This document shows, one piece after another, positions 27,802-41,364 of a DNA stretch of 64,000 bases. Made by a program: the position numbers and the translations under genes. Numbering within the stretch: the first letter of the stretch is position 1; each line of letters begins with the position of its first letter. The notes under the pieces are model-generated. The model ran no database searches. It was not told the DNA's origin and worked only from the letters and a program-made list of their open reading frames with translations. The stretch covers positions 1 to 64,000 of the forward strand of contig JAJZPL010000010.1 in the NCBI GenBank assembly GCA_021811185.1, in the 5' to 3' direction. This stretch comes from a bacterium (GTDB lineage Bacteria; Elusimicrobiota; Elusimicrobia; Elusimicrobiales; UBA9959).

Positions 27802-30800
27802 ATGAACCGCACCTTAATTTTCTCCTTGATCTTCGCGGCGCTGGCGCCTTGGGCGTCCGCTTACGAGAAGATAGAGTTCAAGGGCCAGATCCTGAGCCCG
27901 GCTTTCATGAAACCGTCGGCCGTGGCCGTTTCCGGCGGCAAGGTCTTCGTGGCCGACTCCAGGGCCAACGCGGTCTTTGTCTTCGACTCCGAGGGTAAGC
28001 AGCTCGCGAAGATCGACGGCGGGCTTAAGGCGCCAGAGGCGCTGGCCTTCGGCGGCGGCAGGCTTTACGTGGCCGACACCGGCAACTCCCGCGTGGCGGT
28101 CTTCGACGGCGAGGGCAAGCCCCTCTGGTCGTTCTCCGGCGAAGGTTCCGCCCCCGGCCAGCTGGACGCCCCCGGCGGCATCGCCTACGGCCCCGACAAC
28201 CGGCTTTACGTCTCCAACACCGGCAATTCCCGTGTCGACGTTTTCAACTCCGACGGTATCTACCTTTACGGCTTCCCTACCCTGAAGGCCGACGGCCTCA
28301 CTAAAGTGTACCCCGCGCACATCGCGCTCGACCGTTCCGGGAACATCTTCGTTTCCGACCCGGACAAGGCGCTGCTGCAGAAATACGACCGGCCCGGCAA
28401 GCTGCTCAGGGAGATGAACGTGGCCAATAACGGCGCGGCCCCGGATGCCCGCGGCCTGCTCTATATAATCGATTCCAAAGAAGGCAAGGTTAAGGAATAT
28501 TCCGAGCTGGGCGGCGTTCTGGGAACTTTTGGCACCAAGGGCAAGGGCAAGAGCGCGTTCGGCAACCTGCGCGACATCGCCATGGACGAAGCGGGCGTGC
28601 TCTACCTTTGCGACGACGAGAACAGGAAAGTGGCGGCCATCAAGCTGGAAAGTTCCGGCAATGCCCCCGAGCTGCCCCTGGCTCCCGTGCTGGACCGCTT
28701 CACCGTGAGCGGGCCGGTAGTGAAACTGCCCTTCAAAGCCGACGTCTTCGCCGTGACGCCCGACAACAAGGTTGTGGCTTACCTGCCCGAAACCCGGGAG
28801 ATAGTCCTTATCGACGGCGGCGTCAAGAAAACCCTGGTGCGCGAGGGCAAGCTGCAGGGGCAGGTGCGCTCGCCGCGCGGCATCTTCGTGGACAAGCAGG
28901 GCATGATCTACGTGGCGGATACCGGCAACGACCGGGTGCAGATCTTCAACCCCGACGGCAGCTACTCCAACCAGTTCGGCGAGAGCGGCTCCGGGGACGG
29001 GCAGTTCAAGGCGCCTTCTTCGGTGGCGGTCAATTCCAAGGGCAATATCTACGTGGCCGATACCCGGAACAAAAAGATAAAGGCTTTCAGCCAGGACGGC
29101 ATCTTCCTGTTCGCCGCCGGCCCGGAGCTGGGCAACATCACGCTGCTTAACCCGGTGGCGGTGCGCTGCGACGAGAACAAGAACGTCTATATCCTGGACG
29201 CCGCGCTCAAGAAGGTAGTCGTTACGGACGCCATGGGCAAGTTCCTGCGCGTCTGGGACGATTCCGGCGCGCTGCGGGACCCGGTTTCCCTGGATTACGA
29301 CGGCAAGGGCTTTTTCTATATCCTGGACAAGGGCTCCTACAACGTCAAGATCTTCGACGCAGAAGGCAATTTCACCGCCAGTTTCTTCGCCAAGGGCCGC
29401 GGCGAGCGCGAGCTCTGGGACCCGCAGTGCCTGGCTTTCCGCAACGACAAGATCTATATCTCCGACCCCGAGAACGCGCGGATCCTGGCTTTCGATATCA
29501 GCTACCTTCCCGAGGAACCCTTCGACCTTAAGGCCGAAGCCGGGGAGAAGGGCGTAAAGCTTTCGTGGAAAGCCAAGGCCAACGCCTGGACCGACGGCTA
29601 CAGGGTCTTCCGCCGGCAGGGCGCCGACGGCGAGCTTAAGGAGATCGCCTCCGTGAAGGAGAAGGCTTACGAAGATGCCGCCCTGACCGCCGCGGCTACT
29701 TACTACTATTACGCGGCGCACCTGTCCGTAAGCGGCGCGCAGGGCGGCCTTTCCCTGCCGGCCGCCGCCTACTTCAAGCCGCCGGAAGCCCCCAAGCCCG
29801 CAGAGCCCGCGCCCGCGGCGGAGAACAAGAACGTGGCCCCGATGGAGATCGTCCCGCTGGAGCTCAATTACATCTTCTCGGCCAACTACAAGTATTACCA
29901 GAAGAACCCGGTGGGCCGCATCGCCGTGGTGAACAACACCGACAGCGACTTTACCAACGTTAAGCTTTCCTTCTTCTTCAAGGACTTCATGGATTTTCCG
30001 ACCGACACGATCGTGAAGGAAGTGAAAGCCAGGTCCAAGGTCGACGTGGACTTGATGGCCACGCTGAACAACAGGATCCTCGGCATAACGGAGGACACCC
30101 CGGTCCAGTGCCAGCTGACGCTGACCTATTACCAGGACGGGGCGGAGAAGACCTTCACGCTGAACCAGCCGGTGAAGGTGCTGTCCAAGAACGCCATCGT
30201 CTGGGACAAGCCGGCGCGCCTGGCCAATTTCATCACCACCAAGGACACCCCGGTGATGGGCTTCAGCCGCTACGCCTTGAACGAGAAGGGCAAGGTTGAG
30301 GACGAGACCTCGTTCCTGAACGGCAATACCCTGACCGCGCTGATGGTGTGGGAGGCGCTGGGCGAGCAGGGCCTGAGCTACCTGGCCGACCCGGTCAGCC
30401 CTTATTCGGTGATCAAATCCTCCAGGGCCGAGGCGCTGGATACGGTGCAGTTCCCGCGCACCACGCTGAAGCTCAGGAGCGGCGACTGCGACGACCTGAC
30501 GGCGCTTTTCGCCTCCATCCTGGAGGCCGCCGGCGTGCAGACGGCGCTGCTGGACTACCCGGCGCACATAGCGCTGATGTTCGACACGGGCTCCTCCGAC
30601 GCCAGGGAAGTCGGCATCCCAGAGGAATACCTGATCAAGCACGACAATACCTGGTGGATAGGGCTCGAGACCACCATGGTGGGCAAGGATTTCTACGAAG
30701 CGGTAAAGCACGAGGCGGACCTGTATCGCCGGTCCAAGGACGAGGTGCGTGTTATAGACGTGAGAACGGCCTGGTCGGAGTTCGAACCCGTCACGCTGCC

Positions 30801-31275
30801 CGATACCGAGGCCGAGAGCTACCCCGACAAGGCCAAGTTCATCGCGCGCGTTAAAGCGGCCGCGGCCGGCCTGCTCAAGGCCCGCTACGCCTACTTCAAA
30901 GATTACTACGGCAAGATCCTGCTGGAGGACCCCGCCGACATCGACGCCAACCTGAACCTGGGCATCCTTACCGCCCGGAACGGGGAAGCCGGGGCGGCGG
31001 AAAAATACTTCGGGGAAGTGCTGGAGAAAGAGCCGCACAACGCGGCCGCGCTGAACAACCTGGGCAACCTCGCTCTGGAGCAGGGCAAGTACGACGAAGC
31101 GCGCAAATACTATTTCGACTCCGCCAAGGCCGACCCGTACGACGCGGAGATCTGGCTGAACCTGGCCCGCCTTTCCGACAAGGCCGGCAAGAAGGACGAC
31201 GTGAAGGCCTTCGCCGACCGCGCCGCCAAGATAGACCCCGCCGCCAAAACGAGCGGGGATAAGCTGCTGAAATAA
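27802..31275 (+). CDS. Large secreted NHL-repeat/FN3/transglutaminase-like/TPR protein
   Basis: A 1157-residue protein with a signal peptide ending WASA. Residues 25-570 hold about ten NHL repeats (motifs such as VADTGNSRV, VADTGNDRVQIFN and VADTRNKKIKAF), predicted to form beta-propellers. A fibronectin-III domain occupies about 574-660. A beta-rich region follows, and a transglutaminase-like segment (LRSGDCDDLTALFASILEAAG, then YPAHIALMF) around 890-935 provides a Cys- and His-containing site. The tail has TPR motifs (NAAALNNLGNLAL) to residue 1157. It starts after a strong ribosome site and is followed by a small envelope protein. A surface scaffold or peptide-processing function is a guess. 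Confidence 0.85.
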   Translation: MNRTLIFSLIFAALAPWASAYEKIEFKGQILSPAFMKPSAVAVSGGKVFVADSRANAVFVFDSEGKQLAKIDGGLKAPEALAFGGGRLYVADTGNSRVAVFDGEGKPLWSFSGEGSAPGQLDAPGGIAYGPDNRLYVSNTGNSRVDVFNSDGIYLYGFPTLKADGLTKVYPAHIALDRSGNIFVSDPDKALLQKYDRPGKLLREMNVANNGAAPDARGLLYIIDSKEGKVKEYSELGGVLGTFGTKGKGKSAFGNLRDIAMDEAGVLYLCDDENRKVAAIKLESSGNAPELPLAPVLDRFTVSGPVVKLPFKADVFAVTPDNKVVAYLPETREIVLIDGGVKKTLVREGKLQGQVRSPRGIFVDKQGMIYVADTGNDRVQIFNPDGSYSNQFGESGSGDGQFKAPSSVAVNSKGNIYVADTRNKKIKAFSQDGIFLFAAGPELGNITLLNPVAVRCDENKNVYILDAALKKVVVTDAMGKFLRVWDDSGALRDPVSLDYDGKGFFYILDKGSYNVKIFDAEGNFTASFFAKGRGERELWDPQCLAFRNDKIYISDPENARILAFDISYLPEEPFDLKAEAGEKGVKLSWKAKANAWTDGYRVFRRQGADGELKEIASVKEKAYEDAALTAAATYYYYAAHLSVSGAQGGLSLPAAAYFKPPEAPKPAEPAPAAENKNVAPMEIVPLELNYIFSANYKYYQKNPVGRIAVVNNTDSDFTNVKLSFFFKDFMDFPTDTIVKEVKARSKVDVDLMATLNNRILGITEDTPVQCQLTLTYYQDGAEKTFTLNQPVKVLSKNAIVWDKPARLANFITTKDTPVMGFSRYALNEKGKVEDETSFLNGNTLTALMVWEALGEQGLSYLADPVSPYSVIKSSRAEALDTVQFPRTTLKLRSGDCDDLTALFASILEAAGVQTALLDYPAHIALMFDTGSSDAREVGIPEEYLIKHDNTWWIGLETTMVGKDFYEAVKHEADLYRRSKDEVRVIDVRTAWSEFEPVTLPDTEAESYPDKAKFIARVKAAAAGLLKARYAYFKDYYGKILLEDPADIDANLNLGILTARNGEAGAAEKYFGEVLEKEPHNAAALNNLGNLALEQGKYDEARKYYFDSAKADPYDAEIWLNLARLSDKAGKKDDVKAFADRAAKIDPAAKTSGDKLLK

Positions 31276-31286
31276 GGAGGGGTGAT

Positions 31287-31814
31287 ATGAAGAAAATACT
31301 TTTAACGCTGGCGCTGGTGTTCACGTTCAACGCGGCCTGGGCCGCCGACGGCGGGGACTGGAAGAGCTGGTACTCCAATACGCTGAAAGGCCTTAAGGCC
31401 AAGGTGGAGAGCCGGCTCCAATCCAAGAACAGGGTGGCCGCCGTGGCGGCCGTGCGCGGAGAAAAGCAGGGCGGCGACGCCCGGGCCCTGTACTGGAAGG
31501 GCGGGGTTTCCGAGGCGGCCCGCAAAAAACTGGACGCCGAGCGCAAACAGCTCACCGACGCGCTGCAGCTGGTGCTGGACGGCAGCCTGCCGCAGGGGAA
31601 GGCCGCCATAGAAAAGTTCATGAAAGATAACCCCGACAGCGTCTACCTGGCCGAGGCCAAAGAAGCCCTCGAGAAACTGCCCGCGGACCAGACCAGGCCC
31701 GCAGCGGCGCAGCCCGCTAAAGAGGGAGCTGCGCCGCAGAAAGAAGAGAAGGCGGCGCAGCCGAAAGAGGAAAAGGCCGCTGCCGAAACGGCTCCGACCG
31801 GTTCCGGCAATTAA
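31287..31814 (+). CDS. Small secreted protein of unknown function
   Basis: A 175-residue protein with a clear signal peptide (cleavage near AWA-ADGG) and no recognised domain. The mature part has a helical KVESRLQSKNRV segment. The C-terminus is a low-complexity run rich in Ala, Lys, Pro and Glu with three repeats of a KEEKA unit, likely disordered. An AAGGAGGGG ribosome site lies 11 bases after the stop of the large NHL protein, so it probably belongs to the same operon and acts with it in the periplasm. Confidence 0.8.
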   Translation: MKKILLTLALVFTFNAAWAADGGDWKSWYSNTLKGLKAKVESRLQSKNRVAAVAAVRGEKQGGDARALYWKGGVSEAARKKLDAERKQLTDALQLVLDGSLPQGKAAIEKFMKDNPDSVYLAEAKEALEKLPADQTRPAAAQPAKEGAAPQKEEKAAQPKEEKAAAETAPTGSGN

Positions 31815-31827
31815 CGGCAGAGAGACA

Positions 31828-31859
31828 TGAAAAAGCCCCGCCCAGGCGGGGCTTTTTCA
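31828..31859 (+). terminator. Intrinsic terminator
   Basis: A near-perfect inverted repeat, with AAAAAGCCCCGC facing GCGGGGCTTTTT and a short loop, followed by T-rich sequence, separates the convergent ends of the NHL operon and the next lipoprotein gene; it can work in both directions. Confidence 0.92.
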
Positions 31860-31871
31860 TTTGGCGGGGCG

Positions 31872-32906
31872 TCAGTCGTCGGGGGTTTCGGAGGAAGCCG
31901 CTTCTTTGGGGTTCCAGGAGCGGGCGGCGGGGGCCGGGGTTATCCCCGGCGCGGCGGCCGCCGAAGTAGTTACCGGGACCGTCCAGGTCTTATCCGGCCG
32001 GACCGGGACCGCGGCGGGTTTTTCCTGCGCGCCTGCGGGCTGGGCGGGCGTAATTTCCTGTGCCGGCGCGGCCGACGGCTTGCCGGGCACGATCCAGGTC
32101 TTGTCAGGTTTTTCCGGCTTAACGGCCTCCGTGCCGCCGGGAGCGGCCTGCTCGGAAGTGCCGGGCAGCCAGGACCTGTCCGGAGGCATGGGAGGGGCGG
32201 GGATGGAGTCGGGCTCGGGGGCCTCTCTTCCGGCCGCGGGCAGCTCGCCGGCCGCGCCGCCGCCCGCTTTCAGCCTGGCGTACACGTCGGTGGCGGACCG
32301 CCAGAGCATCTGTTTTAAGAGGGTGTTCTCGCGGGGGCCGGGCGCGAAGAAGGGGTAAAGCGGGGCCAGCAGCAGGTGAAAAGTGGTTTTGCGCTGGCCT
32401 ACGATCTCCACGCGGGCTATGCCGGTGGAGACGGCGAAGTCCGCGTCAAGGGCGTAGTTCACGCGGAGGGTGGAAGGGATGATGAAGATGAAGCCGGTTT
32501 CCGCCAGGTAGGAATGGAAAAGGTCGGCGTAGGTCCACCGGCCGTAGGTGGTGAGTTCCAGGCGCAGCGTGCCGCGGCCTTTCTCCCGGTCGTAAAGGCC
32601 GGCCGCCCGGTATATTTCCTTCGCGCGTTCCGCAAAGGCAGAGCTGTCCTCGGCCGGCGCCGCTACCGTCTGCGGTTTGAGCGGGTTGGAGATGGAACCT
32701 TCGCCTATGGAGTCCGTGGGCGAGCGGTACGGGTAATTGCGCCAGGAGACCTTGATGTCGGAAAAAGGCGTCACCGAACGGTCCTGCAGCATGGCGGAGG
32801 CGGCGTTGCGTTCGACCAGGATGTCGCCGGAGTTGAAGGAAGCGCAGCCGCAGAAAAAGACCGAAAAAGCCAGGGGGAGGAGCAGGAGATACTTTTTTAT
32901 TGGCAT
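31872..32906 (-). CDS. Lipoprotein with C-terminal PDKTW-type repeats, unknown function
   Basis: A 344-residue protein with a signal peptide ending FFCGC, a lipobox-like site. Residues 20-215 are a globular region with no recognised domain. The C-terminal 120 residues are Pro/Ala-rich and contain a repeated motif: PDRSWLPG, PDKTWIVPG, PDKTWTVP and a final RSWNP. These could be ligand- or protein-binding tails exposed from the outer or inner membrane. The gene is convergent with the NHL operon, with a shared terminator, and is followed upstream by the divergent gap before 33008. Confidence 0.8.
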   Translation of the reverse strand: MPIKKYLLLLPLAFSVFFCGCASFNSGDILVERNAASAMLQDRSVTPFSDIKVSWRNYPYRSPTDSIGEGSISNPLKPQTVAAPAEDSSAFAERAKEIYRAAGLYDREKGRGTLRLELTTYGRWTYADLFHSYLAETGFIFIIPSTLRVNYALDADFAVSTGIARVEIVGQRKTTFHLLLAPLYPFFAPGPRENTLLKQMLWRSATDVYARLKAGGGAAGELPAAGREAPEPDSIPAPPMPPDRSWLPGTSEQAAPGGTEAVKPEKPDKTWIVPGKPSAAPAQEITPAQPAGAQEKPAAVPVRPDKTWTVPVTTSAAAAPGITPAPAARSWNPKEAASSETPDD

Positions 32907-33007
32907 TGTGTGTGAATCCGCCTGATATCCGTCATTATGAAATACCGCGTATTTTTACTATATTATATTATACAACCAAATAGCCGCAAGCTGCTTAGGG
33001 GAAGACT
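32907..33007. promoter_or_regulatory. Divergent promoter region
   Basis: A 101-base gap with an AT-rich TATATTATATTATA tract at about 32958-32971, suitable as a -10 region for the plus-strand GNAT-like gene. AGGGGA lies just upstream of the latter's ATG at 33008. No further element is visible. Confidence 0.4.
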
Positions 33008-34204
33008 ATGCCGCCGAAAAAAATCGAGAAGATAATACAGACCGAAGGAAAGCCGGATATCATAATCCGCCTGGCCCAGGTACAGGACATGCGCCGCATC
33101 CAGATGCTTTACGCCGAAGTCTACGGCGCTTCCTACCCGATCCCCATCATAATGGACAAGGCGCTGATGCGCAGCGCCATAGAGAACGACGATTACTACT
33201 GGATGGTGGCGGAGTGCGAGGGGCGCGTGATAGGCAGCCTCGTCTACGAGCTGAACCTGGAGTACAGGAACTCGAAGGCCTTCGGCGCCGTGGTGAGCCT
33301 GGAATTCCGCAAGCTTGACCTGGCCTACACGATGATGAAGCTGGTCCTAGACGACATAACGAAGAAGAAGGACCTGGTGGACCTGGTCTACGCCACCACC
33401 CGCACCGCCAACTACGCCCCTCAGCGGCTGACGGAGAACCTCGGCTTCATCAAGCTGGGGATCTTCCCCAACACGCATAAGGTGCAGGATAACGAAACGC
33501 ACTGCCTTACGGCTTTTTTCACCGATAAGGCGCTGCAGATGCGCAGAAAAAATACCAGGATCATCCCCGAAGTGGAGCCCTTTTACGAGATCGTCCGGCG
33601 GCAGATCGACCTGGACAAGCCGCAGGTTAAGAACGTGGAAGGGATGTACAGCGACCACAAGCAGAAGATCCCGCTGCTCAACTTCGAGGCCATAACCGCG
33701 CCGGCGTTCGTAAAGAACCGCTACAAGAAGACGAAGAGCAACAGTTTCTTCGGACATATCGTGATGCCGTTCCACGAGCCGAACCTGATCCTGATCACGC
33801 CGGACCAGGGCACGGAGGTCTACCTGACCTACAGCACCAAGGATAAATACAGCGTGATCGTGGGCGGCGTGACCAACGAGAAAAGCTTCGCCGTGGTGCT
33901 CGAGAGCGTGGCCCAGAAGGTCAGCCAGATGGACATGGCTTACGTGGAGGTCATCATAGACGCCTACTCGCCGCATATCCAGCGCGACGCGCTGGACGCG
34001 CGGTTCATCCCGAGCGCCTACTTCCCCTGCGCCAAGCGCATGGGGGGCAAGCGGTACGACTGTATCGTCTTCTCGAGGACTTTCGACATCCTCGATTTCC
34101 GCAACGTCAAGATCATCTCGCTGTACAAGAACTTCCTGAAGGAATACCTGAAGCTCTGGCGCGAGAACTACATCGAGCTGGTCTTCAAGACCGAGCCCAA
34201 ATAG
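33008..34204 (+). CDS. GNAT-like acetyltransferase-family protein with extra C-terminal domain
   Basis: A 398-residue protein. The N-terminal half (20-175) resembles a GNAT fold: IIIRLAQVQDMRRIQ, GRVIGSLVYELN, SLEFRKLDLAYTMMKLVLDD, and a CoA-side segment near NYAPQRLTENLGFIKLG. The second half (175-398) has no clear domain and contains FIPSAYFPCAKR. It is followed after 7 bases by the LuxE-like gene, so they form one operon. GNAT proteins transfer acyl groups from acyl-CoA; here it could deliver or remove an acyl group in the reductase pathway, though the substrate is unknown. Confidence 0.75.
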   Translation: MPPKKIEKIIQTEGKPDIIIRLAQVQDMRRIQMLYAEVYGASYPIPIIMDKALMRSAIENDDYYWMVAECEGRVIGSLVYELNLEYRNSKAFGAVVSLEFRKLDLAYTMMKLVLDDITKKKDLVDLVYATTRTANYAPQRLTENLGFIKLGIFPNTHKVQDNETHCLTAFFTDKALQMRRKNTRIIPEVEPFYEIVRRQIDLDKPQVKNVEGMYSDHKQKIPLLNFEAITAPAFVKNRYKKTKSNSFFGHIVMPFHEPNLILITPDQGTEVYLTYSTKDKYSVIVGGVTNEKSFAVVLESVAQKVSQMDMAYVEVIIDAYSPHIQRDALDARFIPSAYFPCAKRMGGKRYDCIVFSRTFDILDFRNVKIISLYKNFLKEYLKLWRENYIELVFKTEPK

Positions 34205-34211
34205 GAACCCT

Positions 34212-35381
34212 ATGGCCGACCTTTCCGTAGAAGACCGACTTCCGCCCGTATATAAGCCGCTGAAAAGCCGCGCCGCGCTCGATGCGCTGTTCGAGACTCC
34301 GGCTTTCGAGTATTCGCCTGAAACCTCAAAGGCTTTCTGCGCCTCCATGCGCGCCGCGCTGGATTTCCAGGGCAAGCGCGCGCCGGTGCTGAAAGCGCTC
34401 TACAAAGCCGAAGGCTTCGAGCCGGAGTCGGTCAGGAAGGAAAAGGACATTTCGAGTATCCCATTTCTCTTCGTGGCCGCGCTGAAGGAGCGCGACCTCA
34501 CCACGCTGCCGCCGTCGCAGATCGCGCTGGAGCTCAAATCCAGCGGCACTTCTGGCCAGCACAGCCGCATGCAGCTGGACAAGGGCTCGCTGATGCGCGT
34601 GCGCCGCATGGCCTGGAAGGTGTTCGAAGGCCTGGGGCTCACCGACCTGGAGCGGGCCCACGATTATATCTGCTTCACCTACGACCCCGAAGTGGCCAAG
34701 GACCTGGGCACCGCCTGGACGGACAAGCTGCTCACCGGCTTCACCAAAAAGGGGGAGATCTTCTACACCTTCCGCTGGAGCAAGGCGAAGAACGACTTTT
34801 ACTTCGATATCGACGGCGCCGTTTCGGCCATGAAGAAGTTCGAGGACGCGCGGGGCGTGGTGCGGCTGGTGGGCTTTCCCGCGTTCGCGCTGAAGCTGAC
34901 CGAGGAATTCAAGCGCCGCTACGGGCGCTACCCGAAGCTGAACCCGGAGTCCAGCGTGGTAACCGGCGGCGGCTGGAAGACCCTGGCCGACGAGGCTATC
35001 GATAAGAAAGTTTACCGCGGCATCCTGGCCGCCAACCTGGGCATCCCCGCGGAGAACGTGCGCGACCTGTTCGGCATGGTGGAGCACGGCGTGCCGTACG
35101 TGGACTGCAGGCTGGGGAATTTCCATATCCCTAACTACGGCCGCGTGATAGCGCGCCACCCGGGCACGCTCGCCCCGCTTGGCTACGGCAAGAAGGGGCT
35201 GCTGCAGTTCATTACCCCTTATCTCACCAGTTATCCCTCGCTTTCGGTGCTGTCGTCGGACTTCGGGCTGGTGCGCGAGCGCTGCTCCTGCGGCCTGGCG
35301 GGCCCGGTGCTGGAGATCCACGGCCGCGCCGGAGTTAAAAAACTTAAGGGCTGCGCCATCAGCGCGGCGACCATGTTATGA
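34212..35381 (+). CDS. LuxE-like acyl-protein synthetase
   Basis: A 389-residue AMP-binding enzyme of the LuxE type. The nucleotide loop is SSGTSGQ; FGMVEHGVPYVDC and HIPNYGRVIARHPGTL match the LuxE core; a CSCG pair follows. The conserved C-terminal cysteine of LuxE corresponds to Cys381 in KGCAISA, the site that carries the acyl chain before transfer to the reductase. It would activate a carboxylic acid as acyl-AMP and hold it as a thioester. Its stop overlaps the LuxC-PaaK fusion start (ATGA), the expected partner. No luciferase genes are present nearby. Confidence 0.88.
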   Translation: MADLSVEDRLPPVYKPLKSRAALDALFETPAFEYSPETSKAFCASMRAALDFQGKRAPVLKALYKAEGFEPESVRKEKDISSIPFLFVAALKERDLTTLPPSQIALELKSSGTSGQHSRMQLDKGSLMRVRRMAWKVFEGLGLTDLERAHDYICFTYDPEVAKDLGTAWTDKLLTGFTKKGEIFYTFRWSKAKNDFYFDIDGAVSAMKKFEDARGVVRLVGFPAFALKLTEEFKRRYGRYPKLNPESSVVTGGGWKTLADEAIDKKVYRGILAANLGIPAENVRDLFGMVEHGVPYVDCRLGNFHIPNYGRVIARHPGTLAPLGYGKKGLLQFITPYLTSYPSLSVLSSDFGLVRERCSCGLAGPVLEIHGRAGVKKLKGCAISAATML

Positions 35382-38017
35382 AAATACACAATACCTATTT
35401 GTTCGGCAAGGTCTCGGACAAGGCCTCGTGGACGCCGGCGGAACTGGAAAAGGTGGGCCTGCAGGCGCAGGCCGCGCGCGAGCTGATGCGCGGCGTCTCC
35501 CGCGATTATATCGCCGACACGCTTTCCAGGGCGGGGCGCATGTTCGAGAGAGGCGGCAAGTACCGCAAGGCCGCGCTGGCGCACCTGAAGCAGCATATCC
35601 CCTTTTCGGAACCGGTGATCGACAAGAGCCTGGACATCATCCCCGAGATCCTGGACAAACAGGCCCTGATCAAGCGGATGAACATGGAGCTCTTTATCCC
35701 GTACGCGCTGGAGGCCCCGGTAGAGCGGCGCGGCTACGACGGGCTGGTTAGGGCGCTGCCGAAAGGCGTGGTGCTGCACGTGGGCGCCGGCAACGTGTTC
35801 CTGGGCATCCTGGACTCGCTGGTGATAGGGTTCCTGACGAAGAACGTGAACATCATAAAGCTTTCGTCGTCGGGCTCCAGCTTCCTGAACCTTTTCATGG
35901 ACGCGCTTAAGGAAGCGGACGGTAAAGGCGTGCTGGCCAGCTCCGCCGCCATCGTCAGCTGGAAGGGCGGCAGCCAGGGCCTGGAAGAGGCCGCGCTGAA
36001 GCACGTTAACGCCGTGTTCGTGTGGGGCGGCTACGAGGCCGTGCAGGCCTACAGGAAGATCGCCCCCATAGACGTGCGGGTGGAGGGCTTCGGCCCCAAG
36101 ACCAGCGTGGGCGTGGTCTTCGACAGCTGCATAGAATACGAAGGCATGGACAACGTGGCCCGCCGGGCGGCGCTGGACGCCTCGCTGTGGGACCAGGCGG
36201 CCTGCTCCTCGCTGCATACGCTTTACATCGTGGCGCCCAGGCTCAAGCACAAGGCGCTGGCTTCCGATTTCCTGAAGTTCGCGGCCAGGCATTTCGCCGA
36301 CCTGGCTAAAGAACTGCCGCAGGGCAAGCTCTCGCCCGACGAAGAGGTGGAGATCACCCGCGCCCGGGAACTGGCCCGCGTGGATATGGCGCTGGGGAAC
36401 GCGGCTTACGTGAGCTCCGCGCCCACCACGCATTGGACCGTTATTTACGAGAAGGACACGGCGTACCGGGTCTCGCCGCTGAACCGCGTGCTGTACGTGA
36501 AGACGGTGGAAACCATAGAGCAGGTGAAAGAACTGCTGCTGCCGATGCGCGGCTATATCCAGACCGTGGGCGTGGGCGGCTCGATCGAGCGCAAGAAGGT
36601 GCTGGAGACGCTGGCCCCGGCCGGTATAGCCAGGGTGGTCAAGCTGGGCAAGATGCTGGAGGAGGCCAACGGCTCACCGCACGACGGCATCTTTCCTATG
36701 ATGTCGCTGGTGAACTGGGTGCCGATAGAGGAGAAGCCCTCCCAGCTGGACCGCCTGAGCGAGCTGGTGGACCACGCCCGGACCCGCAGCCCGTTCTACG
36801 CCCGCCATTTCAAGGGCGTGCCCAGGATAATTTCGCTGGAGGATTTCCAGAGGGTGCCTTTCCTCGAAAAACACCACGTGCTGGAGAACACGCCGCCGGA
36901 CAGTTCCGACCTGCTCACTTCCAAGGTGCAGCGCGGCATCTTCTTCGCCAGCGGCGGTTCTACCGGCCAGCCGAAATACGTTTTTTACGACCAGCACGAG
37001 TACGACCATACCTGCCGGATGCTGGCCTTCGCGATGGAGGCGGCCGGCCTCAACGAGAAGGACGTCATCGCGAACCTATTCGTGGCGGGCAACCTCTGGT
37101 CCAGCTGGCTGTCGGTGGAAAAGGCCATCGCCTACACCAAGGCCATCTCGGTGCCGGTGGGCAGCAACCTGCCGCTGGAGAACATCGCAGGCTACCTGGA
37201 GGACTTCCAGGTGACGGCCGTAGTGGGGCTGCCGTCCTTCCTGGTTAAACTGGCCGAGTTCGTAAAGGCGAACAAGAAATACAGGGTGGGCATCAAGAGG
37301 ATCTTCTACGGCGGGGAGTACGTGGGCGAGGAGATGGTGAAGTTCTTCAAGGACGTGTTCCCCGGGGTGGACGTGCGCTCGGCGGGCTACGCTACGGCGG
37401 ACGCCGGGGTGCTGGGGTTCCAGTGCCCCGCCTGCGTGAAGGGGCAGCACCATTTGTTCGCGCACAGCCAGTTCATAGAGTTCGTGGACCAGGATACTTT
37501 CAAGCCGGTGGAGAAGGGCGAGATAGGCGAGCTGGTGGTTACGGGGCTTTCCAAGAAGCACATGCCCATCATCCGCTACCGGGTGGGCGACCTCGGGCGC
37601 TGGATAAAAAAAACCTGCGCCTGCGGCAGGAAGGAGCCGCTGTTCGAGATCCTCGGGCGCTGCGACGACCGCATCCACGTCGGCGGGGCGCATTTGTTCG
37701 TGAACGACATTCAGAACGCGCTGGGCAAGGTGCCCGACCTGAGTTTTAACTTCCAGGTGCTCATCGACAAGAAGGGCCACCGCGATACGCTCAAGATCCG
37801 CGTGGAGGTGAAGGATGAGGCGGCGCTGGCCAGGGCGGGAGAACTGGCGGACCTGCTGTGGCGCGAAGTGGAAGGCCACTGCGAGGACCTGCACGAGAGC
37901 GTGCGCATGAAGTGGCTGGACAAGCCCGAGATCGAGGTGCTGAAGCCCAACGCCATCGAGCGCGTTCAGCGCACCGGTAAGATCCGCAAGGTCATAGACA
38001 AGAGAGTGAAGGTATAA
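35378..38017 (+). CDS. LuxC-like acyl reductase fused to PaaK-type acid-adenylating domain
   Basis: An 879-residue fusion. Residues 1-450 match LuxC: a VVLHVGAGNVFLG cofactor loop at 131-143 and Cys276 in DQAACSS, equivalent to the reductase nucleophile. Residues 465-879 match PaaK/phenylacetate-CoA-ligase-type adenylating enzymes, with FASGGSTGQPK at 523-533, YRVGDLGRW and a C-terminal RTGKIRKVI. The reductase would take an acyl group from LuxE (or from CoA) and reduce it to aldehyde with NAD(P)H; the fused domain could activate a second acid. Fusion and pairing with LuxE suggest channelled acid-to-aldehyde reduction. Acid type and product are not known. Confidence 0.85.
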   Translation: MKIHNTYLFGKVSDKASWTPAELEKVGLQAQAARELMRGVSRDYIADTLSRAGRMFERGGKYRKAALAHLKQHIPFSEPVIDKSLDIIPEILDKQALIKRMNMELFIPYALEAPVERRGYDGLVRALPKGVVLHVGAGNVFLGILDSLVIGFLTKNVNIIKLSSSGSSFLNLFMDALKEADGKGVLASSAAIVSWKGGSQGLEEAALKHVNAVFVWGGYEAVQAYRKIAPIDVRVEGFGPKTSVGVVFDSCIEYEGMDNVARRAALDASLWDQAACSSLHTLYIVAPRLKHKALASDFLKFAARHFADLAKELPQGKLSPDEEVEITRARELARVDMALGNAAYVSSAPTTHWTVIYEKDTAYRVSPLNRVLYVKTVETIEQVKELLLPMRGYIQTVGVGGSIERKKVLETLAPAGIARVVKLGKMLEEANGSPHDGIFPMMSLVNWVPIEEKPSQLDRLSELVDHARTRSPFYARHFKGVPRIISLEDFQRVPFLEKHHVLENTPPDSSDLLTSKVQRGIFFASGGSTGQPKYVFYDQHEYDHTCRMLAFAMEAAGLNEKDVIANLFVAGNLWSSWLSVEKAIAYTKAISVPVGSNLPLENIAGYLEDFQVTAVVGLPSFLVKLAEFVKANKKYRVGIKRIFYGGEYVGEEMVKFFKDVFPGVDVRSAGYATADAGVLGFQCPACVKGQHHLFAHSQFIEFVDQDTFKPVEKGEIGELVVTGLSKKHMPIIRYRVGDLGRWIKKTCACGRKEPLFEILGRCDDRIHVGGAHLFVNDIQNALGKVPDLSFNFQVLIDKKGHRDTLKIRVEVKDEAALARAGELADLLWREVEGHCEDLHESVRMKWLDKPEIEVLKPNAIERVQRTGKIRKVIDKRVKV

Positions 38018-39849: not shown

Positions 39850-41091
39850 TTAAATTCCTGCTGCGTCCCGCCTGAGATTTCCGACACCATTTTTAATTTT
39901 AAGCGCCAACCACGATCCCGTAGCCAGCCAGGCGGAGAGCGAAAACAGTGTGGAGAATTTCCAGAACAAATTCTCTCCGATAAGCGCGGTGCAGCGGGAG
40001 TAAAGGGCCGGGGAATAAAGACCCATGTACAGGCACCCCATCCAAAGCGTGCAGAAGGCGGCGTAAGCCGCGTATATCCTTTCCGGACGCTGCGCCCTGG
40101 TGACAAGAGCGAACGGGACTGGCCAGATAAGATATTGGCTGCCGAAGCCGGAGGTGAAGGTTAAAAGGCCCAGGAAAGCGATGATTATGTCGTCAATAAG
40201 CCGTGTCCGTCCGCGTGAACACTGGTAATAAACCGCTAAAAGCGCCAGCAGGAGATACTTTCCGAAGCGGTTTCCCTGTTCATAAAGCCACTGGAATAAA
40301 CTCAGGGAGAAGTGCTTTTTTAGTATCGTCAAGACAAGCATGTATCCCCAGTAACCGAATTTGGGCGCATAGCCTAGCACGCTTTTGAGGAAAAGCCCTG
40401 GCGCCGCCAAGAAGTAAGGCAGGCTGAAAGCCGTGATGGGAAGCAGCGAGAGTGCAAGATAATGGAACCGGTCTTTAAGGGTTTTTTCGCGGAAAAGGAA
40501 GAAGGGAAGAAGTATTATCGGATAGTTTTTTGCTGCGATGGCCGCTCCCAGGAAAAGAGCAGAAAAGGTCTTGTCGCGCGCGTCTTGAGCAAATTCAAAA
40601 TAATACCAGGCCGCCAGGCAGAACATTATGACCATCGGGTCAAGCTGGCCATGAACGGATGTTACGAAGAAAGAAACCGGGTTCGCCGCGTAGAGCAGCG
40701 CGGCTTTAAAAGCCGAGACCCTGTCGGACTTGAGCCGTAAGACGGCGGAAAAGATGATAGCCGTAATGACGCAGTCGGAAATAATGGAGGGAACTTTTAT
40801 CATTCCCCAGAACGGTAGTCCGGCGGCCCCTGATAAGAACCTGAACGGCCACAACAGCCACGGGATGAAAGGGGAATAATTGCTCGGCAGGCGGCTGTAG
40901 AAATGCAGCAGTTCGCCGTTGAACAGTGCCCCTGGAAGAGCGAAGATATTGGTAACGTCCGAGGTTCCGTAAACGAGGAACGCCGCCGGAACCCGTAAAA
41001 TCAGGCAAAGACCCACGGCTGTCAAGATCAGGCGGCTAGTCGGCCAGGTGCGCAGCGCTAAATGCATTATCCCCCATTTCCCGTTCGGCAT
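39850..41091 (-). CDS. Polytopic membrane protein, mannosyltransferase-like (GT-C)
   Basis: A 413-residue protein with about 10 membrane segments. The motif LLYAANPVSFFVTSVHGQLDP resembles the GT-C enzymes that use polyprenyl-phosphate sugars (PIG-M/GT87-like). I favour the ATG at 41091; TTG at 41109 is an alternative. GC content is clearly below its neighbours (about half in the sampled lines), suggesting acquisition from elsewhere. It converges with metG and its surroundings show no other glycan gene. Function uncertain. Confidence 0.7.
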   Translation of the reverse strand: MPNGKWGIMHLALRTWPTSRLILTAVGLCLILRVPAAFLVYGTSDVTNIFALPGALFNGELLHFYSRLPSNYSPFIPWLLWPFRFLSGAAGLPFWGMIKVPSIISDCVITAIIFSAVLRLKSDRVSAFKAALLYAANPVSFFVTSVHGQLDPMVIMFCLAAWYYFEFAQDARDKTFSALFLGAAIAAKNYPIILLPFFLFREKTLKDRFHYLALSLLPITAFSLPYFLAAPGLFLKSVLGYAPKFGYWGYMLVLTILKKHFSLSLFQWLYEQGNRFGKYLLLALLAVYYQCSRGRTRLIDDIIIAFLGLLTFTSGFGSQYLIWPVPFALVTRAQRPERIYAAYAAFCTLWMGCLYMGLYSPALYSRCTALIGENLFWKFSTLFSLSAWLATGSWLALKIKNGVGNLRRDAAGI

Positions 41092-41364
41092 AATTGTTCT
41101 TTCTTCCAAAGGTTATTGCTAAATTCCCTGCAGCTAGAATAGTAATTGTATATTAATTGAAAATGGTTATTTTAAAATGCCGGCTGAAAGCCGGCGGGTT
41201 AATAGCGACGTTTAAAAAGCTCACTCGGGGTGAAAAGAGGAAAATCTCCAAGGAACTCCCGATAGCCGCTCTTATGTTTTCTGAGAAGTGAACTTTTTGG
41301 CGGGAGGGGGTACTAATTAGCAAGCGGGTGCGAACGATATGCGGATTATTAAAGGAGAAAAGTT
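41092..41364. other. AT-rich intergenic region with a hairpin
   Basis: A 273-base gap between divergent genes. It contains a 7-bp perfect hairpin GCCGGCT-GAA-AGCCGGC at 41179-41195, which lacks a downstream T run on the plus strand. The right part holds AAAGGAG just before the RcpC-like ATG. I saw no tRNA or known riboswitch motif. Confidence 0.5.

Follow-up and report, generated by a model that had tools for sequence, protein, structure and literature searches.

An operon of a LuxE-type protein, a LuxC-PaaK fusion and a tandem-GNAT protein in Elusimicrobiota: a candidate system for acid reduction and acyl transfer

In textbooks, LuxC and LuxE belong to the machinery by which bacteria produce light. 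What such proteins may do in a bacterium in which no luciferase is found is the question raised by a three-gene operon at positions 33008 to 38017 of a 64,000-nucleotide stretch of elusimicrobial DNA (contig JAJZPL010000010.1 of assembly GCA_021811185.1, lineage UBA9959), which is referred to as the window. The initial annotation had read the operon as an acid-to-aldehyde reductase system without luciferase that provides the aldehyde or alcohol for a lipid or surface molecule. Our favoured reading, which is tentative and may well hold, is that reduction of a carboxylic acid is combined with activation of a second acyl group and with acyl transfer. The genes of the trio and the domains of the fusion are as follows.

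33008..34204, plus strand: tandem-GNAT protein, 398 amino acids; GNAT domain at about residues 16-160, second GNAT-like domain (as it appears in the model) at about 226-358, then a C-terminal helix
34212..35381, plus strand: predicted LuxE-type acid-activating, self-acylating protein, 389 amino acids; Cys381 codon at 35352-35354
35378..38017, plus strand: LuxC-PaaK fusion, 879 amino acids, by Pfam and NCBIfam
35522..36718, plus strand: LuxC (acyl reductase) domain of the fusion, residues 49-447; Pfam LuxC 1.5e-68; Cys276 codon at 36203-36205
36740..38005, plus strand: PaaK-type adenylate-forming ligase domain of the fusion, residues 455-876, by NCBIfam and PDB matches; C-terminal Lys868

All three open reading frames lie on the plus strand, with a 7-base gap between the GNAT and LuxE genes and an ATGA overlap between LuxE and the fusion, just as the initial annotation had placed them. 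Pfam assigned the second protein to LuxE (2.7e-33) and the third to LuxC, followed by AMP-binding (2.4e-12, residues 525-723) and AMP-binding_C_2 (5.7e-10, residues 770-876), both of which exceed the Pfam cut-offs. The best NCBIfam match of the second half of the fusion was to PaaK models, which cover residues 454/455-876 with 155.0 versus 646.3 bits and 155.6 versus 700 bits, i.e., below their equivalog cut-offs, and PDB chains of PaaK matched this half at up to 3.1e-38 by sequence and at E 5.2e-32 by fold. The claim of two acid-activating parts, LuxE and the PaaK half, is thus borne out by the Pfam and NCBIfam matches. The NCBIfam models for LuxC and LuxE, which describe proteins acting on long-chain acids, were matched at 125.1 versus 750 bits and 86 versus 550 bits, respectively, far from their equivalog cut-offs.

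In alignments with the LuxC-LuxE complex 7xc6, the window LuxE could be followed through the KGC motif of chain E, where the position of Cys381 agrees, and the window LuxC aligned with chain A at the catalytic cysteine, Cys276; both cysteines are therefore where they had been claimed to be. The AlphaFold model of the fusion (predicted local distance difference test, pLDDT, 88.1; predicted template-modelling score, pTM, 0.72) is one from which the mutual placement of the halves is not readable. Its 50 listed PDB fold matches comprised PaaK-type ligases, the LuxC of 7xc6 and aldehyde dehydrogenases, and since the template-modelling score on query length never exceeded 0.43 among them, no listed match spans both halves. 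Carboxylic acid reductases of the A-PCP-R type carry a phosphopantetheine carrier domain; in Pfam searches with an E limit of 1, none of the three trio proteins showed such a domain.

A fusion of LuxC to a PaaK-type enzyme might be suspected to be an assembly artefact, and a homologue search was named in the initial annotation as a check. Within the window's genus, 29 of 32 genomes contain a near full-length fusion, and the other three have pieces of it at contig edges. Among 294 sampled Elusimicrobiota, matches spanning both halves came from at least 58, counted as listed matches at ≥740 model positions (a wider tally of 111/294 includes PaaK-only matches); the corresponding numbers were at least 26 of 290 for Bdellovibrionota, 14 of 149 for an Armatimonadota-like phylum (Armatimonadetes and Chloroflexi records) and 2 of 246 for Planctomycetota; one match in each of the first three samples contains a stop (G276, G467 and G609, respectively). 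Among the 80 of 88 relatives that were kept, the fusion also occurred in records of Wallbacteria, Riflebacteria, UBP16 and Halobacteriovoraceae. In the related family f2, it was seen in 0/24 genomes first sampled, yet in two others (G160, G164). Because the fusion recurs in so many genomes, including those of distant phyla, both chance and misassembly were rejected and the fusion is regarded as genuine.

Mutated key residues in relatives had been named as a second possible refutation, and the counts do not bear it out. Cys276 of LuxC was kept in 109/110 proteins (a shortened copy in L100 lacks it) and Cys381 of LuxE in 99/99. Lys868 of the PaaK half was retained in all 108 proteins that reach this position (2/110 stop short), while Lys533 of the PaaK loop was changed in 6/110 and cysteines 747 and 749 were absent in some proteins. 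For these counts, proteins with identical last 150 residues were counted once and fusions below 700 amino acids as well as LuxE or GNAT proteins below 330 amino acids were omitted; the sets hold many close relatives and include sequences used to build the alignments. The ratio of non-synonymous to synonymous substitution (dN/dS) was 0.10-0.18 for all three genes (nine gene comparisons in three genome pairs within the genus). Given the kept residues and these ratios, decay of the genes was rejected. Pairwise identities of the three proteins covaried across 78 loci (r 0.965-0.98, not corrected for the organisms' shared ancestry), with r 0.58-0.69 among pairs less than 50% identical.

The linkage of the three genes was followed in 96 fusion loci, 76 from one set of relatives and 20 from a second set. 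Of the 91 loci with at least 900 bases upstream, 84 carry LuxE no more than 1.5 kb ahead of the fusion; in L087, L088 and L091 it lies 1.5 to 1.8 kb upstream. An armatimonadete record (L102:7069-11013) contains a single frame of 1314 amino acids with LuxE at 36-407, LuxC at 471-871 and PaaK at 897-1307; this triple fusion, known from a single record, could in principle stem from a sequencing error. A GNAT-type gene was near the fusion in 86/87 loci, a number that is biased upward, as loci lacking room entered the count only when they showed a GNAT; the tandem GNAT was present in 84 of all 96 loci. Additional partners were an MFS transporter within 9 kb (24/96), a second PaaK (23/96), a HATPase-like GNAT protein (13/96) and a secreted glutaminase-like protein (6/96).

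A tree of 67 fusions clusters by gene content, with 11 changes against 31.4 in shuffles; the fusions were chosen by hand to thin near-copies, the method was a quick one and 16 of 64 inner branches are weak. Three locus versions were distinguished. The plain trio (a) is found in the window's family, in the Armatimonadota-like phylum and in some Bdellovibrionota. Version (b), from Bdellovibrionota, carries an additional PaaK downstream of the fusion and, in many cases, an MFS transporter. The long cluster (c), from records of Elusimicrobia, Riflebacteria, Bdellovibrionaceae and Proteobacteria, consists of genes for the secreted glutaminase-like protein, PaaK, the HATPase-like-GNAT protein, LuxE, LuxC-PaaK, the MFS transporter and the tandem GNAT.

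Some members of these loci were viewed individually. The glutaminase-like gene (L117:91-1224, L113:4948-5994 and kin) lies mostly directly 5' of the PaaK gene, and its product reached 22.9 and 22.2 bits against Gln_deamidase_2 (PF18626; cut-off 25) in two members; in a third long-cluster member, L109, no match to this family was obtained. At L206:12047-13504, beside the LuxC-PaaK fusion, HATPase_c_2 (3.2e-10) and then a GNAT domain occur in one protein; among the proteins scanned, the HATPase part reached Pfam level in L206 only and was judged by eye elsewhere. At L196:6436-8897, the trio is followed by two adjacent secreted-looking proteins, each with a HEARHSDG motif, and the one that was scanned matched no Pfam family.

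The first protein of the operon was assigned to Acetyltransf_1 with a weak match that is nevertheless above the cut-off (7.9e-5; 23.4 bits, cut-off 20.7). Its AlphaFold model, built from a 35-sequence alignment (pLDDT 90.0, pTM 0.90), displays two consecutive GNAT-like sets of strands and helices, and all PDB fold matches listed for it are GNATs (best E 6.5e-11). Judged by sequence profile and model, the protein is of GNAT fold; the second domain, as seen in the secondary structure of the model, looks like a GNAT as well. The GNAT-like protein that had been described as leading the operon is therefore upheld in its fold, whereas according to the model it is not a plain GNAT but carries two GNAT-like domains in tandem.

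With respect to luciferase, PF00296 found no match in the one own genome searched (0/1; completeness 93.57%), while the same search was positive in 10 of 14 control genomes. The absence of luxA/B noted previously thus extends from the window to this genome, although it is not absolute given the completeness value. One LuxC is present in the own genome. A second LuxE, 85% identical to that of the window, lies on a contig of 3288 bases (C57; L220:1-3288) and is followed by a gene named by eye as an IS200-like transposase. The same contig holds a 123-base piece identical to the start of L073, a fusion locus of another genome. With 5.22% contamination listed for the genome, this LuxE may be a contaminant; otherwise it would be a second copy.

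How the parts could work together is suggested by the chemistry of their families. LuxE would use ATP to form an acyl-adenylate and load the acyl group onto its Cys381. The acyl group would then pass to Cys276 of the LuxC half and be reduced with NADPH to the aldehyde. With a further ATP, the PaaK half would activate a second acid, as adenylate or as coenzyme A (CoA) thioester, and the tandem GNAT might join this second acyl group to an amine (or hydroxyl); this last step is a guess, as are the order of the steps and the product, which would be an acylated molecule that carries an aldehyde or is derived from one. Export may be accomplished by the MFS transporter present in about a quarter of related loci. 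Of the acid-to-aldehyde reductase proposed initially, the LuxE and LuxC parts and their key cysteines stand; the acid-to-aldehyde chemistry of the trio is predicted purely by homology.

Several observations weigh against this scheme. The CoA-binding loop of GNATs has the consensus R/Q-x-x-G-x-G/A. Proteins of the window's clade mostly carry R-K-x-[D/N]-x-A in place of R-x-x-G-x-A, and glycine occupies the loop position in only 14/86 proteins (the window protein has D104); as judged by eye, the GNAT of the long clusters has lost the loop. The GNAT step may therefore use another acyl donor or be non-catalytic. LuxE was not seen near the fusion in L073, L100 and L208, and no GNAT was seen in L205. 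In 72/96 loci, an MFS transporter was not seen within 9 kb, and none is annotated among the neighbours of the trio in the window. Comparing PaaK parts with GNATs by number, tried as a guide to the pathway, works for the trio and the long cluster and fails in the Bdellovibrionota versions.

Other explanations were weighed with the same evidence. The lipid use contained in the initial annotation, in which a fatty acid is converted to an aldehyde or alcohol for an envelope lipid, appears unlikely. From family knowledge and the names of the NCBIfam models, known LuxC and LuxE act on long-chain acids, and the fusion or a piece of it is present in 32/32 genus genomes, a genus-wide presence that suggests a housekeeping lipid. 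However, the long-chain models for LuxC and LuxE remain far below cut-off (125 of 750 and 86 of 550 bits), and among the recurring neighbours annotated, which are part of all, no lipid or envelope enzyme was seen to accompany the module from phylum to phylum. A role in lipids or at the surface is possible, and for the surface there is a precedent, since LuxE-type proteins without luciferase are reported from flagellin glycosylation islands and from O-antigen acid synthesis. The use for such a molecule found no backing in these neighbours, and the second PaaK, the GNAT-type proteins, the MFS transporter and the secreted glutaminase-like protein would fit an exported small molecule no less well. 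That LuxE and the PaaK half are instead two inlets, each feeding its own acid to the same LuxC cysteine with the GNAT as a side or helper protein, would agree with the covalent linkage of PaaK to LuxC, with the acceptance of acyl thioesters by LuxC-type proteins (family knowledge) and with the second PaaK besides the fused one in 23/96 loci. We consider this quite unlikely, since the GNAT-type gene in nearly all loci with room would be left unexplained.

The modification of a surface glycan, with an unusual acid being attached to an amino sugar by the GNAT as N-acyltransferase, would follow the logic of O-antigen tetronic acid or of flagellin glycosylation islands. The islands are reported to combine LuxE and LuxC with an AMP-dependent synthetase and to do so without luciferase (PMC4875605, PMC7874193), and a LuxE domain is reported for RfbN, a Vibrio cholerae protein of O-antigen tetronic acid synthesis (PMC4772473). 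This explanation was kept because of RfbN and of a PMT_2-like gene 1.8 kb downstream of the trio on the other strand of the window; it is improbable, as that gene was unmatched in the stretches of 20 relatives, the recurring partners of the module (neighbours annotated in part) are not sugar genes and the module belongs to the core of a genus, unlike a variable cassette. Improbable, too, is direct ligation, in which the PaaK half joins two molecules as amide or ester, leaving a binding or regulatory role to the GNAT. Natural-product ligases of the PaaK type can join molecules directly; the nearest solved folds include three PaaK-type ligases, NatL2, AjiA1 and ClxA, and the CoA loop of the GNAT is degenerate in many members, but the best sequence matches are chains named phenylacetate-CoA ligase. 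The conservation of the C-terminal lysine fits a CoA ligase and direct ligation alike and does not separate the two. That the trio feeds aldehyde to a luciferase encoded at another site of the genome, as the homology to LuxC and LuxE would suggest, can be given hardly any credence; within the completeness of the own genome this is nearly refuted by the absence of PF00296, for which the search was positive in 10/14 controls.

Returning to the coupled reductase and acyl transfer, a wider proposal is possible, albeit doubtful. LuxE, LuxC-PaaK and the tandem GNAT may constitute a multi-phylum biosynthetic system that builds an acylated aldehyde or its derivative as a signal, an inhibitor or another small molecule. 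The trio of the window's lineage would be its core form, to which long clusters would add a second ligase, the HATPase-GNAT protein, the MFS exporter and the secreted glutaminase-like protein as a possible target or partner. If the product is indeed a small, aldehyde-derived molecule, an overlooked class of biosynthetic clusters would be findable by the fusion signature. The locus merits attention because LuxC and LuxE are bound here to a second acid-activating enzyme and a GNAT, in a lineage whose one tested genome shows no luciferase. The module is conserved throughout a genus known only from metagenome assemblies in the records listed, and it recurs in Bdellovibrionota, a phylum known for predatory bacteria.

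The surroundings of the operon were also inspected. In the AT-rich gap 5' of the operon, one further feature was recorded:

32937..32966, plus strand: weak promoter-like site, pattern 9/12 only

The region contains four promoter-like sites where chance alone predicts 1.5, which is no evidence of function. The upstream genes (27802-32906) are syntenic through the family and encode a 1157-amino-acid NHL-propeller and TPR protein, a 175-amino-acid protein and a divergent 344-amino-acid protein that has a lipoprotein-like look and no Pfam match; despite this synteny, they gave no biosynthetic clue. The PMT_2 glycosyltransferase-like gene is located at 39850-41109, downstream of metG, and apart from it, no sugar or flagellin genes were seen beside the trio among the part of the neighbours that was annotated. 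In Bdellovibrionota, ten annotated neighbour proteins (nine trio neighbours selected by recurrence, one from L206) yielded no clue to function either; four are without a Pfam match and the others are a GTPase, a pantoate ligase, a flavoprotein of pantothenate metabolism, an HD-domain protein, a glutamine amidotransferase and an ABC ATPase.

Among known systems, the flagellin glycosylation islands (PMC4875605, PMC7874193) and RfbN (PMC4772473) resemble the trio in possessing LuxE-type proteins without luciferase, and a Riemerella gene likewise encodes a LuxE-type protein without luciferase (PMC4772473). As far as the available parts of these sources reach, the islands share LuxC and an AMP-dependent synthetase with the trio and, unlike it, additionally hold acyl carrier protein, FabG and sugar genes; these parts make no mention of a LuxC-PaaK fusion or a tandem GNAT for the islands or RfbN. 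In the literature searched, which covers part of the publications, no description of the LuxC-PaaK fusion or the module was found; PMC11481866 joins the terms LuxC, phenylacetate-CoA ligase and fusion, but in the part available, luxC is a reporter.

With GNAT acyltransferases such as RimI, SpeG, ArsN and kin, the first protein has the fold in common, and it departs from them in its two tandem domains and, in the window's clade, its altered CoA loop. PaaK-type ligases (PaaK1/2, BT_0428, NatL2, AjiA1, ClxA and 2-hydroxyisobutyryl-CoA ligase) share the fold, the nucleotide loop and the C-terminal lysine with the PaaK half of the window, which differs in being fused to LuxC and in scoring below the equivalog cut-offs. 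The LuxC-LuxE fatty acid reductase of Photobacterium phosphoreum (7xc6) is set apart from the trio by the PaaK-fused LuxC and tandem-GNAT partner of the latter, in which scores are far below the equivalog cut-offs and no luciferase was found, whereas the LuxE with its KGC cysteine, the LuxC with its catalytic cysteine and the LuxC fold are common to both.

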